A DNA stretch of 27,369 bases from the IMG/VR virus record IMGVR_UViG_3300022074_000300, positions 1 through 27,369 of that record, one strand, 5' to 3'. This DNA is from a virus. Made by a program: the position numbers and the translations under genes. The notes beneath the pieces are model-generated. The model was not told where the DNA came from. It worked only from the letters and a program-made list of their open reading frames with translations, and ran no database searches. Numbering within the stretch: the stretch's first letter is position 1; every line of letters begins with the position of its first letter. This document shows positions 14,349 through 22,459 of the stretch, piece after piece.

Positions 14349-15227
14349 ATGAATACTACTGTTATGGCAGGAGAAGTAACTGCTCCTAAAAAAGTTACGT
14401 TTGCAGATAGAAAAAATGCTAACTCAAATAGAATAGAACAAGATGAAAAAGAACTACAAGAGTTAATGCAAACTGAAGAAAAGGTTGATGAAGAAAAAGA
14501 ACCAGAGGTAGAGGCACAAGAAGCTGAACCAGTTAACGCAGAAGAAAAAAGTTTTAAAAAACGTTATGGTGATTTACGTAGACATCAACAAACTAAAGAA
14601 AAAGAATATGAAGAAAGAATTAAAAAGTTAGAACAACAATTAGTTGAATCTACTAAAAGTGAGATTAAGTTACCAAAGTCTGATGAGGACATTGAAGCTT
14701 GGGCAAAACAATATCCTGATGTAGCAGGTATTGTAGAAACAATTGCAATTAAAAAAGCACTTGAACAATCAGAAGGGCTTGAGGAAACAAAAAAAGAAAT
14801 AGATGAATTAAAAGCTACGGCTGCACGAGAAAGAGCAGAAGTAGAACTTATGAAAATTCATCCTGACTTTGGTGAAATAAGAGATAGTGATGACTTTCAT
14901 AACTGGGCTGAAGAACAGCCTAAGTGGGTACAAGAAGCTCTATATGAAAATGATACAGATGCTCGTTCTGCAAGTCGTGCAATCGACTTATACAAAGTAG
15001 ATATGAATATCACATCAAAAAAACCAGAGAGCAATAAAGACGCTGCACGATCAGTAGATAGTCGCAGCAGTCGTGATGAACCTAAAGTAGATGGTAAAGA
15101 AGGTACATTCACAGAGTCACAAGTTGCAAAAATGACAACGCAACAATACGAAAAAGCTTCCGATCAAATTATGGAAGCTATAAGAACTGGCAAATTTATT
15201 TATGATATGTCTGGTTCTGCCCGATAA
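14349..15227 (+). CDS. Capsid scaffolding protein
   Basis: The 292-residue protein is Glu/Lys-rich and almost wholly helical, with coiled-coil stretches at about 60-105 and 130-165. The C-terminal part (FTESQVAKMTTQQYEKASDQ onward, ending GKFIYDMSGSAR) is the kind of short helical basic tail that binds coat protein. P22 gp8 (303 residues) has the same size, composition and position between portal and coat. Scaffold shapes the procapsid and leaves before maturation. Start is 14349 or an in-frame ATG at 14364. Confidence 0.85.
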   Translation: MNTTVMAGEVTAPKKVTFADRKNANSNRIEQDEKELQELMQTEEKVDEEKEPEVEAQEAEPVNAEEKSFKKRYGDLRRHQQTKEKEYEERIKKLEQQLVESTKSEIKLPKSDEDIEAWAKQYPDVAGIVETIAIKKALEQSEGLEETKKEIDELKATAARERAEVELMKIHPDFGEIRDSDDFHNWAEEQPKWVQEALYENDTDARSASRAIDLYKVDMNITSKKPESNKDAARSVDSRSSRDEPKVDGKEGTFTESQVAKMTTQQYEKASDQIMEAIRTGKFIYDMSGSAR

Positions 15228-15234
15228 TATACCA

Positions 15235-15262
15235 TTGACAAATAAAAATAATATGGTATAAC
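15235..15262 (+). promoter_or_regulatory. Strong promoter for the capsid cassette
   Basis: TTGACA (15235-15240), 16 bases, and TATAAC (15257-15262) with a TGG extended -10. The -35 box is perfect and the -10 matches in five of six positions. Transcription should begin near 15269. It lies eight bases after the scaffold stop and drives the major capsid gene. The same box pattern occurs at 605 and 782. Confidence 0.75.
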
Positions 15263-15268
15263 TATAGA

Positions 15269-15479
15269 TATGATTATTACTAGCCGCATTTAAGCCTACC
15301 TAGTAATAAATTATATCATTCGATAGACTAAACAATACGTAAGACTTACCTGTTCAAGTATAGGCCCATAGAATTATCGGTAGGCCAACTGATAATAATA
15401 TGCACCCTAGAAAACGTACAGCCTCTATGTGATAATGTTTAGCTTGTAATTAAGCCTAAACTTTATAGGAGGAACTATT
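15269..15479 (+). promoter_or_regulatory. Structured leader of the capsid mRNA
   Basis: About 210 untranslated bases contain three hairpins. TTATTACTAG (15274-15283) pairs with CTAGTAATAA (15300-15309) over a 16-base loop. ATTATCGGT (15373-15381) pairs with ACTGATAAT (15388-15396). GTTTAGCTT (15437-15445) pairs with AAGcCTAAAC (15452-15461). GCCTACC (15294-15300) can instead pair with GGTAGGC (15379-15385), offering an alternative fold. A perfect AGGAGG (15467-15472) sits seven bases before the ATG. Confidence 0.6.
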
Positions 15480-16553
15480 ATGGCTTTTAGATCAGCAGCA
15501 GGTTACAGCAATTTACCTAATGGTAATTTCTCGCCAGTAATCTACTCCAAACAGGTACAACTTGCATTTCGCAAAGCTACCGTAGTAGGAGACATAACTA
15601 ACTCTGATTATTTTGGGGAGATTTCTGCCCAAGGTGATACAGTGAAAATTATCAAAGAACCTGAAATTTCTGTGAGCGAGTATGCTCGTGGGACACAGGT
15701 TAATGCACAAGACCTTGACGATGAGGATTTTTCACTCGTTATTGACAAAGCTAACTACTATGCTTTTAAGATGGACGATATAGAAGAAGCTCATAGTCAT
15801 GTAAACTTTATGGACCTTGCAAGCAATCGTGCTGCGTATCGTCTATCTGATCAATATGACCAAGAAGTACTTGGTTATTTGTCAGGCTTTAAGCAATCTG
15901 CATTACATGCAAAAGCAGATACAGCAAATGACCAAGTAAATGGTACAAAAGCTGTAACTACTGCAGGTTCAGATGAGTTGCTTACAAGCATGAAGATACG
16001 TAAAGATTCATTTGGTAATATTACAACATCGTCTGCAGGGGATCATTCAATCCCAGTAACTGCACGTATGCCTGGAGCTACATCACTTCCAACTGCAACT
16101 GTTTCACCTGCGATGATTATTTCACGCATGAAACGTTTGCTTGATCAACAACAAGTGGATACTCAAGGTAGATGGCTCGTAATTGACCCAGTGTTTATGG
16201 AAATCTTATCAGATGAAGATTCTCGATTTATGAATGGAGATTATGGTGAATCTGGTGGACTACGTAACGGTCTTGTAATTAACAACTTTCATGGCTTCCG
16301 TTTATATGTATCTTCAAACCTACCTGCAGTAGGTACTGGTCCAGGTACATCAGGAACAGCAAACCAAAACTCAAACTTTGGTGTGATTGTTGCAGGACAT
16401 GAATCTGCAGTTGCAACAGCAGAGCAGATTAATAAGACAGAAACATATCGTGACCCTGACAGCTTTGCTGACATTGTTCGTGGTATGCATCTATATGGCA
16501 GGAAGATTCTTCGACCAGAAGCAATCGCAACTGCTAAATACAACGCAGCGTAA
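15480..16553 (+). CDS. Major capsid protein
   Basis: The 357-residue protein follows scaffold and a strong promoter, as coat follows gp8 in P22. Segments such as YSKQVQLAFRKATVVGDIT near the N-terminus, an RWLVIDPVFMEILSDEDSRF block in the middle (about 229-249) and NNFHGFRLYVSSNLP (about 268-282) are typical of HK97-fold coat proteins of marine podoviruses. The ATG is preceded by a perfect AGGAGG at seven bases. The coat assembles around the scaffold into the icosahedral shell. Length is shorter than P22 coat (430), so the extra P22 insertion domain is probably absent. Confidence 0.92.
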   Translation: MAFRSAAGYSNLPNGNFSPVIYSKQVQLAFRKATVVGDITNSDYFGEISAQGDTVKIIKEPEISVSEYARGTQVNAQDLDDEDFSLVIDKANYYAFKMDDIEEAHSHVNFMDLASNRAAYRLSDQYDQEVLGYLSGFKQSALHAKADTANDQVNGTKAVTTAGSDELLTSMKIRKDSFGNITTSSAGDHSIPVTARMPGATSLPTATVSPAMIISRMKRLLDQQQVDTQGRWLVIDPVFMEILSDEDSRFMNGDYGESGGLRNGLVINNFHGFRLYVSSNLPAVGTGPGTSGTANQNSNFGVIVAGHESAVATAEQINKTETYRDPDSFADIVRGMHLYGRKILRPEAIATAKYNAA

Positions 16554-19840: not shown

Positions 19841-22459
19841 ATGGGTAATACATACACGAGACAATCCAGTTTTACAGACGGTGATGTTATTACTGCCGAT
19901 CTGTTTAACAACGAATATGATCAACTTTTAGCTGCCTTTGCAGCAAGCACAGGACACACTCACGATGGTACTGCTGCAGAGGGTGGACCTATTACTAAGC
20001 TATTAGGCACAGGTATTACTATTGGTGATGGTACATCAGGCACTGATATTACAGTGACCTTTGATGGTGAGACTAATGATGGTGAACTTAAATGGATGGA
20101 AGACGAAGATTACTTTGAGTTCTCCGATGATATTCTTATTGCCTCTACAGAAAAGATACAGTTTCGTGACACAGCTATATTTATAAACTCTAGTGCCGAT
20201 GGTCAGCTTGATCTTGTTGCAGATACAGAAATACAGATTGCTGCTACAACAGTAGACATCAATGGTAATGTAGATGTATCAGGAACACTTACTGTTGCAG
20301 GTGCTGTAGACTTTGGTGACGCTGCTTTATCAAATGTAGGTGCAGTACAACTAGATAGTATCGCAGGTGATGCTGACTCTAACACAAGTATAGCTTTCAG
20401 TGGCTCTGATGTAATTACAGTTACTGCAGGTGGTGAGACACAGGTTACTTTTAACAATGGATCAATACTTCCTACAACAGATGACGATGTAGATCTAGGT
20501 TCTAGTTCTTTTGAATTTAAAGATGGTTATTTTGATGGCACTCTTCACGCAGATGCAATAAACTTTAACGGTACAGCTATAACAGCAACTGCTGCTGAAC
20601 TTAATATTATGGATGGTGTTACCTCTACGGCTGCAGAGTTAAATATACTTGATGGTGCTACGGTAGTTGTAGGAGAGATTAATGCTCTTGATCTAGGATC
20701 TACAGGTACAGGCACAGCTATTAACTCTAAAGCAGTTATATTAGATGCTAACAAAGACTACACAGGCATAAGAAACCTCACACTTACAGGTGATCTCACT
20801 ATTGGTGGTGATGATCTCACTATGGCTACCAACACTTCAGGACATCTTCTTATTGCAGATGGCACAAACTTTAACCCTACTGGTGTAGGTGATTTATCTG
20901 AGATTAGTACAGTTGCTAATGATGACGTGTTTCTTGCCGTAGACACCTCTGGTGGTGGTCTTAAAAAGATTACACGTAGCACTATAGTCTCTGGTCTTGC
21001 TGTTGGTGGTGTTGCTCTATCTAACATAGTAGAAGATAGCACTCCACAGTTAGGTGGCAACCTTGATATGAACGGTAACGATATTGTTACTACATCAAAT
21101 GCCGATATTGACCTAGCACCTAACGGCACAGGTAAAGTAGTTGTAAAGGGTAATACTAATCCTGGTACTGTAGTATTTAACTGTGAGTCTAACTCTCATG
21201 GTCAAACAGTTAAGTCGCAACCACACTCAGCTTCTGTTACTAACGTGCTAACTCTTCCTGCAGGTGGTGATCAGGAAATTGTTGGTACGACAGCAACACA
21301 AACACTTACAAACAAAACAATGGGTGCTACTAGCTTCGGTGATAACAATATTACTAACGTTGGTGACATTGCTCTAGACTCTATTAGTGCTGATGCCACA
21401 GATATTAACGTTGCTGTTTCTGATAACTCAGCTACTGCACTTACAATTAAACAAGGCTCAGATGCCTATCTTATAATTGATACAGCTAACAGCAGTGAGT
21501 CTGTCTCTATCGGTACAGGTATATCTGGTACAGCTATCACACTAGGACACAGTACCTCAGAGGTTACAGTAGCAGATAACCTTACAGTTACAGGTGACTT
21601 AACTGTATCGGGTACAACTACAACAGTAAACTCTACCACTGTAAACCTTAACGATCACAACATTGTTCTTGACAGTGGTAACAGTACATCTGCTGTAGTT
21701 AATGGTGCAGGTATTACAATAGAGGGTGGTAGTGGTGATGATGCTACATTTACCTATAATACTTCAGGACCAAAGTTTGAGTTAAAACTAGGCTCTAGCC
21801 ATGAAGATTTACAGGTAGACAAACTTACTGCAAATGGTGGTCTAGTTGCAGATAATATTACTATTGACGGAACAGAGATAGATTTATCATCTGGAGACTT
21901 GACAATTGATGTTGAGGGTGATATAATCCTTGACGCAAATGGTGGTGACTTTAAGTTTCAAGATGACGGAACTGAGATACTTAGAATTACTAACTCATCC
22001 AGTGACGTAGTTATTAGACCTGTTGTAGATGCTAAAGATATTATCTTTCAACAAAGAGATGGTACAGAAGTAGCTAGGATAGAAGACAATGGTACATTTA
22101 ACGTTGTCACAAGTAAACTAGCTATAAATGGAACTGCCATAACTTCAACAGCAGCAGAGTTAAATATACTTGATGGTGTAACATCTACTGCTGCTGAATT
22201 AAACATACTTGACGGTGTAACTTCTACAGCAGCAGAGTTAAATATACTTGATGGTGTTACAGCAACAGCGTCAGAACTAAACTTACTAGATGGTGATACT
22301 TCTGTTGGTAGTTCAATAACAGTAGCAGACGCTGACGGTTTTTTAGTTAATGACGGTGGAACAATGAAAACTATTCCTGCAACAGATGTAAAAACTTACG
22401 CTGCAGGTAGTGCTGCCACTAAAGGATTTGCCATTGCTATGGCAATAGTATTTGGATAG
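19841..22459 (+). CDS. Tail fibre protein with AELNILDG repeats
   Basis: The 872-residue protein begins with SFTDGDVITADLFNNEYDQL and a GHTHDG motif (38-43) of tail-fibre attachment domains in marine phages. It continues as a long Thr/Ser/Asp-rich beta fibre with collagen-free repeats: AELNI(L/M)DG units at about residues 250-275 and again at 770-821, and a NLNDHNIVLDSGN segment common in cyanophage fibres. The C-terminal 50 residues end in a hydrophobic helix-like segment. It binds host surface structures. The ATG directly follows the preceding TAG, with AGGAG 11-15 bases upstream. Confidence 0.85.
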   Translation: MGNTYTRQSSFTDGDVITADLFNNEYDQLLAAFAASTGHTHDGTAAEGGPITKLLGTGITIGDGTSGTDITVTFDGETNDGELKWMEDEDYFEFSDDILIASTEKIQFRDTAIFINSSADGQLDLVADTEIQIAATTVDINGNVDVSGTLTVAGAVDFGDAALSNVGAVQLDSIAGDADSNTSIAFSGSDVITVTAGGETQVTFNNGSILPTTDDDVDLGSSSFEFKDGYFDGTLHADAINFNGTAITATAAELNIMDGVTSTAAELNILDGATVVVGEINALDLGSTGTGTAINSKAVILDANKDYTGIRNLTLTGDLTIGGDDLTMATNTSGHLLIADGTNFNPTGVGDLSEISTVANDDVFLAVDTSGGGLKKITRSTIVSGLAVGGVALSNIVEDSTPQLGGNLDMNGNDIVTTSNADIDLAPNGTGKVVVKGNTNPGTVVFNCESNSHGQTVKSQPHSASVTNVLTLPAGGDQEIVGTTATQTLTNKTMGATSFGDNNITNVGDIALDSISADATDINVAVSDNSATALTIKQGSDAYLIIDTANSSESVSIGTGISGTAITLGHSTSEVTVADNLTVTGDLTVSGTTTTVNSTTVNLNDHNIVLDSGNSTSAVVNGAGITIEGGSGDDATFTYNTSGPKFELKLGSSHEDLQVDKLTANGGLVADNITIDGTEIDLSSGDLTIDVEGDIILDANGGDFKFQDDGTEILRITNSSSDVVIRPVVDAKDIIFQQRDGTEVARIEDNGTFNVVTSKLAINGTAITSTAAELNILDGVTSTAAELNILDGVTSTAAELNILDGVTATASELNLLDGDTSVGSSITVADADGFLVNDGGTMKTIPATDVKTYAAGSAATKGFAIAMAIVFG
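20588..20665 (+). repeat. Two tandem 39-base repeat units in the fibre
   Basis: Two copies of a 13-codon unit encoding TAAELNI(L/M)DG followed by three residues. The DNA of the two copies differs at many third positions, so they are old. A similar set lies near the gene's 3' end. Confidence 0.7.
22148..22303 (+). repeat. Four tandem 39-base repeat units in the fibre
   Basis: Four 13-codon units, each encoding T-A-(A/S)-E-L-N-(I/L)-L-D-G plus three residues. Units one and three are nearly identical in DNA, unit four diverges. Tandem in-frame repeats of this type could change copy number by recombination or slippage. Confidence 0.8.

Follow-up and report, generated by a model that had tools for sequence, protein, structure and literature searches.

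In a marine phage, 252 bases (positions 15228–15479) separate the major capsid protein (MCP) gene from the open reading frame upstream of it. The window, by which we mean the whole stretch of DNA analyzed, runs from position 1 to 27,369 of IMG/VR record IMGVR_UViG_3300022074_000300, and the phage of this 27,369-nt record is an HMO-2011-type marine podophage, of a group described as dominant and widespread in the ocean (PMC9038755). Between 14800 and 16000 its closest named relatives are Roseobacter phage CRP-1, Puniceispirillum phage HMO-2011 and CRP-345, the similarity spanning the intergenic region and both flanking genes. The MCP gene (15480–16553; this gene, the upstream ORF, the promoter and the leader parts below lie on the + strand) matches the major head protein family PHROG 267 (E 8e-62) and Pfam Phage_capsid_4 (E 6e-8); the upstream ORF (14349–15227) falls in PHROG 13678, a family without assigned function, and is a putative scaffold judged by gene order only. 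The initial annotation had proposed a capsid leader of about 210 bases, and this is borne out: the intergenic region contains a promoter at 15235–15262, and its length is conserved in homologues (212–293 nt in nearly all IMG/VR contigs with a locatable upstream ORF end; the single 34-nt outlier, L065, is a stop-finding artefact).

The promoter-like element, TTGACA-N16-TATAACTA, is located between the putative scaffold and MCP genes (−35 TTGACA at 15235–15240, a 16-nt spacer, −10 TATAAC at 15257–15262, then TA). The −35 hexamer is TTGACA in all 128 homologous leaders, with a 16-nt spacer in 120 and a −10 element of TATAACTA/G in 126, and the exact arrangement TTGACA-N15..18-TATAAC occurs just 0–3 times per ~55-kb phage genome. 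By consensus match, transcription is predicted to start near 15267–15269, placing ~212 nt of leader downstream of the promoter. Phage T7 likewise has a promoter (phi10) between its scaffold and capsid genes, with a 5′-terminal hairpin and a strong Shine–Dalgarno (SD) sequence. At the level of sequence our leader resembles that of T7 gene 10 in having its own promoter between putative scaffold and capsid, a 5′ hairpin near +1 and a strong SD; it differs in its length (~212 nt), its multi-helix conserved fold, its two identical internal loops and its sigma-70-like promoter. The shared gene order, together with a first hairpin (P1) that begins a few bases from the predicted 5′ end, speaks for a constitutive 5′ untranslated region of the T7 type, in which structure shields the 5′ end and fixes a high rate of capsid translation with neither ligand nor switching. 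We consider this unlikely, on account of the internal loops and of the environment of the SD.

Reading 130 distinct leaders allowed us to deduce a common fold, consisting of the P1 hairpin, then a helix P0 that surrounds P2 and P3, and lastly P4, directly 5′ of the SD. P1 (15267–15317) has a stem of 15267–15283 with 15300–15317, interrupted by an internal loop of CC (15284–15285) opposite CUAC (15296–15299) and closed by an inner stem, P1b (GC/GC). The initial annotation had described a 10-pair stem near the start of the transcript; P1 does begin within a few bases of the predicted start, and the stem itself consists in computed folds of 9 pairs, a bulged A and 8 further pairs. The pattern stem-CC-hairpin-NYAC-stem is present in 108/129 leaders and in 26/1290 shuffles (2%), and the P1 stems have many different sequences with pairing preserved (e.g., UA/CG/AU/GC at outer6). 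The 5′ strand of P0, CUAAAC (15328–15333), pairs in the ON fold with GUUUAG (15437–15442). Within it, the 5′ side of P2 (15341–15353, from covariance model R1) reads AAGA (P2a), the (N)NYAC loop CUUAC (15345–15349) and CUGU (P2b, 15350–15353), and the 3′ side (15418–15427) reads ACAG (P2b), the CC loop (15422–15423) and UCUA (P2a); the general form is AAGA-(N)NYAC-CUGU with ACAG-CC-UCUU, and the P2b pair composition is GC:71, AU:14, CG:1. P2 continues with AGUA and the UAGG of P2c (15357–15364), facing CCUA, the 3′ strand of P2c, and GAA (15406–15412). AGUA (15357–15360) is one half of an AGUA/GAA bulged-G-like loop; it is found in 110/129 leaders, in 99 of them together with GAA, and these 99 carry the helix-flanked, AGUA-opposite-GAA signature of a sarcin–ricin/bulged-G module as far as primary sequence can tell. 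P3 (15367–15402) has a lower stem (15367–15370/15399–15402), an upper stem (15374–15381/15388–15395) and the loop AGGCCA. Beyond P2 lie the switching strand GUUUAGCUU (15437–15445), whose partner may be either upstream (P0) or downstream (P4), and the 3′ strand of P4, AAGCCUAAAC (15452–15461); the leader ends, as had been annotated, in a perfect AGGAGG (15467–15472), to which the CCUC within the 3′ side of P2 (15422–15425) is the anti-SD.

One internal loop, with CC facing (N)NYAC, occurs in both P1 and P2, circularly permuted between them (the strand order is reversed). As a candidate identity we considered the C-loop module, an asymmetric internal loop with characteristic non-canonical pairs. 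A structure that merely stabilized the message would need no invariant unpaired loop bases in two permuted copies, which argues against the constitutive reading. An interaction suggested initially, a seven-base complementarity between a first loop (15294–15300) and the second hairpin (15379–15385) that might form a kissing loop, is not upheld: the window offers 6 pairs (GCCUAC/GUAGGC), the supposed loop is the 3′ side of the conserved internal loop (CUAC), and across 102 leaders P1-loop/P3-loop complementarity does not differ between loops of one phage and loops swapped between phages, such that the P1–P3 contact is not conserved.

The P3 stem is free to vary in sequence; the apical part of P3 is swapped for other hairpins in some relatives, and its loops are mostly self-complementary (GGCC, GCGC, UGAUCA). 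This modular exchange of palindromic loops would fit a leader that is released as a separate RNA for assembly or packaging, akin to a pRNA and making RNA–RNA contacts through P3; several of the loops are non-palindromic (GGCA, GGCG) and some relatives (L068, L077) have a short P3 only, and we hold this reading to be highly improbable. In five leaders (L007, L033, L067, L081, L083) a hairpin with a YUGAUCA heptaloop replaces the usual NGGCCN/NGCGCA hexaloop of P3, both loop types being palindromic for the most part. P4 also accepts insertions, of ~70–100-nt hairpins (CCACACAUAACUCGA...CUUGUGUGG) in L085, L121, L125, L146 and L165 and of another, different long hairpin in the L056/L063/L099/L192 relatives.

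Folded on its own, the window's leader is modestly unusual (z = −1.98, with an equal fold in 4/200 shuffles), and the case for structure therefore rests on homologues. A covariance model of the P0–P2–P3 core (30 pairs) shows two-sided changes in 27/30 pairs and a covariation score of 0.366, against 0.130 ± 0.006 for shuffled and ≤ 0.067 for slid controls, an excess of compensatory changes of the kind that marks a conserved structured RNA. Because the alignment is fitted to this model, we added alignment-free tests, in which a phage's own two strands are compared with strands swapped between phages. P3 displays the strongest covariation (pair 55–155 is AU:36, GC:31; own versus swapped, rank 0.057). 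For P0, in which both sides have changed in 6/6 pairs, the comparison across clades gives a rank of 0.15 (p 0.0002; reversed-strand controls 0.33), and that of P0 with the outer part of the switching strand alone, in the main clade only, is null. P4 as a whole is supported (p 0.0002); its outer stem alone gives p 0.0036, yet the reversed-strand control gives p 0.009, so that covariation here is weak and not cleanly separable from an effect of composition. The SD and anti-SD barely vary, and the SD helix therefore affords no covariation test. The check for covariation in homologues that the initial annotation had proposed thus returned a strong signal, and its suggestion of an undescribed cis-acting RNA that may tune translation is upheld by this signal, by retention of the leader 5′ of MCP and by the lack of any Rfam match. 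We conclude that the MCP leader is almost certainly a conserved, undescribed structured cis RNA.

Homologous leaders are found 5′ of MCP in HMO-2011, in CRP roseophages (CRP-212 included) and in > 100 IMG/VR contigs. The covariance model locates one copy, 5′ of MCP, in 16/17 records; in the 17th, CRP-345, the leader falls below the model threshold and is recognizable by eye. A model trained without them detects HMO-2011, CRP-603, CRP-235, CRP-2, CRP-207 and CRP-3. A degenerate pattern scan, made without reference to MCP, yielded 117 contigs with testable downstream sequence, and in 115 of these the first MCP residue begins 47–127 nt past the match (in the remaining two, L172 and L205, the downstream sequence aligns to an internal part of MCP only). 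Neither the 17 records nor the 117 pattern matches place a leader at a second genomic site or before a gene other than MCP. Fourteen pattern matches in genome contigs, considered as possible cellular copies, are ascribed to chance, none being confirmed by the covariance model. The SAR11 phages HTVC103P, HTVC104P and HTVC033P have gaps of 30–50 nt with no leader match, and this capsid type as such can therefore do without the leader. A gene for an HNH-type nuclease (2021–2590) separates the upstream ORF from the leader in phage ctYwJ313 (L086), where the P0–P2–P3 core still adjoins MCP; what remains of this leader contains no TATAAC, and its promoter may have been lost or displaced. In CRP-9 (L084, MW514246; 2097–2114) MCP is annotated to start 15 nt 5′ of the ATG placed after the SD by the leader model (R2 match at 2052–2114), and this annotated start is probably wrong.

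This distribution bears on a further alternative, that the leader works in antitermination, modifying RNA polymerase through a site at the start of the late transcript. The put RNA of phage HK022, a two-domain stem-loop with which a phage transcript begins, makes RNA polymerase terminator-resistant, and our leader is alike by description: conserved stem-loops form the extreme 5′ end of a transcript driven by a sigma-70-like promoter, upstream of structural genes. Unlike put, it is tied strictly to the MCP start and SD: it lies at most ~130 nt from the MCP start codon, with no copy elsewhere in the genomes searched, its final hairpin is predicted to engage the SD, and downstream terminator-like sites are no commoner than in shuffles. 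We regard antitermination as very unlikely. Attenuation was also considered and set aside, there being no U-run 3′ of P4 in the sequences read.

We examined computationally how the fold could gate access to the SD. GGAGG is present in 100/125 leaders, and in these 100 it is predicted to pair with the CCUC of P2 with a mean probability of 0.81 (ViennaRNA). In computed folds of the window's clade, strand GUUUAGCUU alternates between P0 upstream and AAGCCUAAAC beside the SD. The alternative fold that the initial annotation had envisaged is thus supported in another guise, as competition for the GUUUAGCUU and CCUC strands beside the SD rather than as a kissing loop. When the two states are enforced, the closed state is favored by 3.5 ± 2.8 kcal/mol in an energy model that leaves out non-canonical loops and tertiary contacts, and this modeled advantage could be offset by such loops and contacts or by a bound factor. 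Comparison of transcripts cut at the P4 loop (representing the nascent state) with complete leaders (n = 82) indicates that P2a falls from 0.62 to 0.06 and P0 from 1.41 to 0.13 as SD:anti-SD pairing rises from 0 to 0.91, in 81–82 of the 82; for the window's clade, the SD is therefore computed to be open while the RNA is nascent and to close at equilibrium. When the P4 region alone is shuffled, SD:anti-SD drops from 0.80 to 0.23 (39/40 leaders), and the closed state is therefore not a trivial encounter of GGAGG with CCUC. A simply exposed SD was not supported for the main clade (SD unpaired 0.11, versus 0.22 with P4 shuffled), and likewise on shuffling the upstream part (0.21 versus 0.27). That main-clade occlusion exceeds its P4-shuffled controls is a second point against a constitutive leader; in favor of one, the SD is predicted to be mostly unpaired in CRP-1, CRP-345, CRP-212, CRP-235 and HMO-2011 (paired 0.18–0.39). 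Since the SD is mostly free in these outlying clades, its occlusion is not universal. For the distant CRP-3, folding predicts that strand GUUCUUCU finds its partner upstream, forming P0.

The shift from nascent to complete leader, computed in nearly every sequence compared, would by itself make a kinetic timer, in which new transcripts start ON and relax to OFF without any ligand, giving a burst of capsid synthesis per mRNA. Such a timer leaves the conserved loops of P1 unexplained (P1 being outside the strand exchange) and is not predicted for the outlying clades; we judge it quite unlikely. A translational switch, to which we give about an even chance, would accommodate both loops, the switching step being modeled from the competing folds. 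During transcription P1 and P0/P2/P3 would form first, with the SD still accessible. After synthesis of the final ~40 nt, an SD hairpin built from CCUC:GGAGG and GUUUAGCUU:AAGCCUAAAC would capture the CC/UCUU of P2 and the 3′ strand of P0, unless a factor bound to the CC/NYAC loops of P1 and P2 were to hold P2 and P0 together. With the factor bound the SD would stay free and capsid synthesis high, and with the factor absent the SD would close. From the identity of the loops we infer that one factor may read both; candidates are a phage protein, a host protein or a metabolite. In a co-occurrence comparison (references HMO-2011 and CRP-1), B12-dependent ribonucleotide reductase was the sole gene present in 10/10 leader-positive and 0/2 leader-negative genomes; with two negatives only, this is no evidence of a link, and it was dropped as a regulator. 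More tentatively, and at rather less than an even chance, the leader could represent a novel class of RNA that senses a ligand or a protein, exclusive to HMO-2011-type phages, that gates capsid translation via two permuted recognition loops; capsid production would then begin upon a specific late-infection or host signal.

This RNA recalls translational riboswitches and protein-sensing leaders: a conserved aptamer-like domain precedes a single gene and, in the main clade, helices predicted to be mutually exclusive leave the SD sequestered in one computed state. It differs in matching no Rfam family, in its proposed control of a virion structural gene and in an SD occlusion predicted for only some clades. 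None of 4227 Rfam families matches the whole window at gathering score, and over the leader there are chance matches only (E 2.7–4.8). Its proposed action is that of a translational leader switch; we assign it to no named family of riboswitches or antiterminators. A full-text literature search returned no report of such a leader and nothing on control of gene expression in HMO-2011-type phages, and the main genomic paper on the group makes no mention of promoters or intergenic regions. Marine T4-like cyanophages also have candidate structured 5′ leaders, the manA and wcaG motifs, which lie in front of metabolic and stress genes; capsid genes are unmentioned in that paper (PMC2864571). HMO-2011-type phages hereby gain a specific, testable control element on their main structural gene, and the duplicated, permuted internal loop is a handle for finding the bound factor. 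Our results suggest that compact phage genomes can hold undescribed structured leaders missed by standard annotation.

Several observations concern promoters. Another promoter of this kind (CRP-1 12503, CRP-345 13358) was rejected as a site of another such leader, an ORF lying ~35 nt downstream without a long leader. TTGACA-N17-TATAAC also occurs on the other strand at the 3′ end of the DNA polymerase gene (L232, CRP-1, 504–532; L233, CRP-345, 459–487), with a near-identical spacer in several phages. A 12/12 sigma-70 consensus (TTGACA-17-TATAAT with TG) at 21899–21927, within the large tail-region ORF 19841–22459, may be a chance occurrence. At 15228–15260 and in homologues, an inverted repeat (TATACCAT...ATGGTATA in the window) extends over the −35 and spacer that precede MCP; its arms reach at least 7 in 28% of leaders versus 2% of controls, their sequences differing between phages, and it might serve as an operator or, as an RNA hairpin, terminate the upstream transcript.
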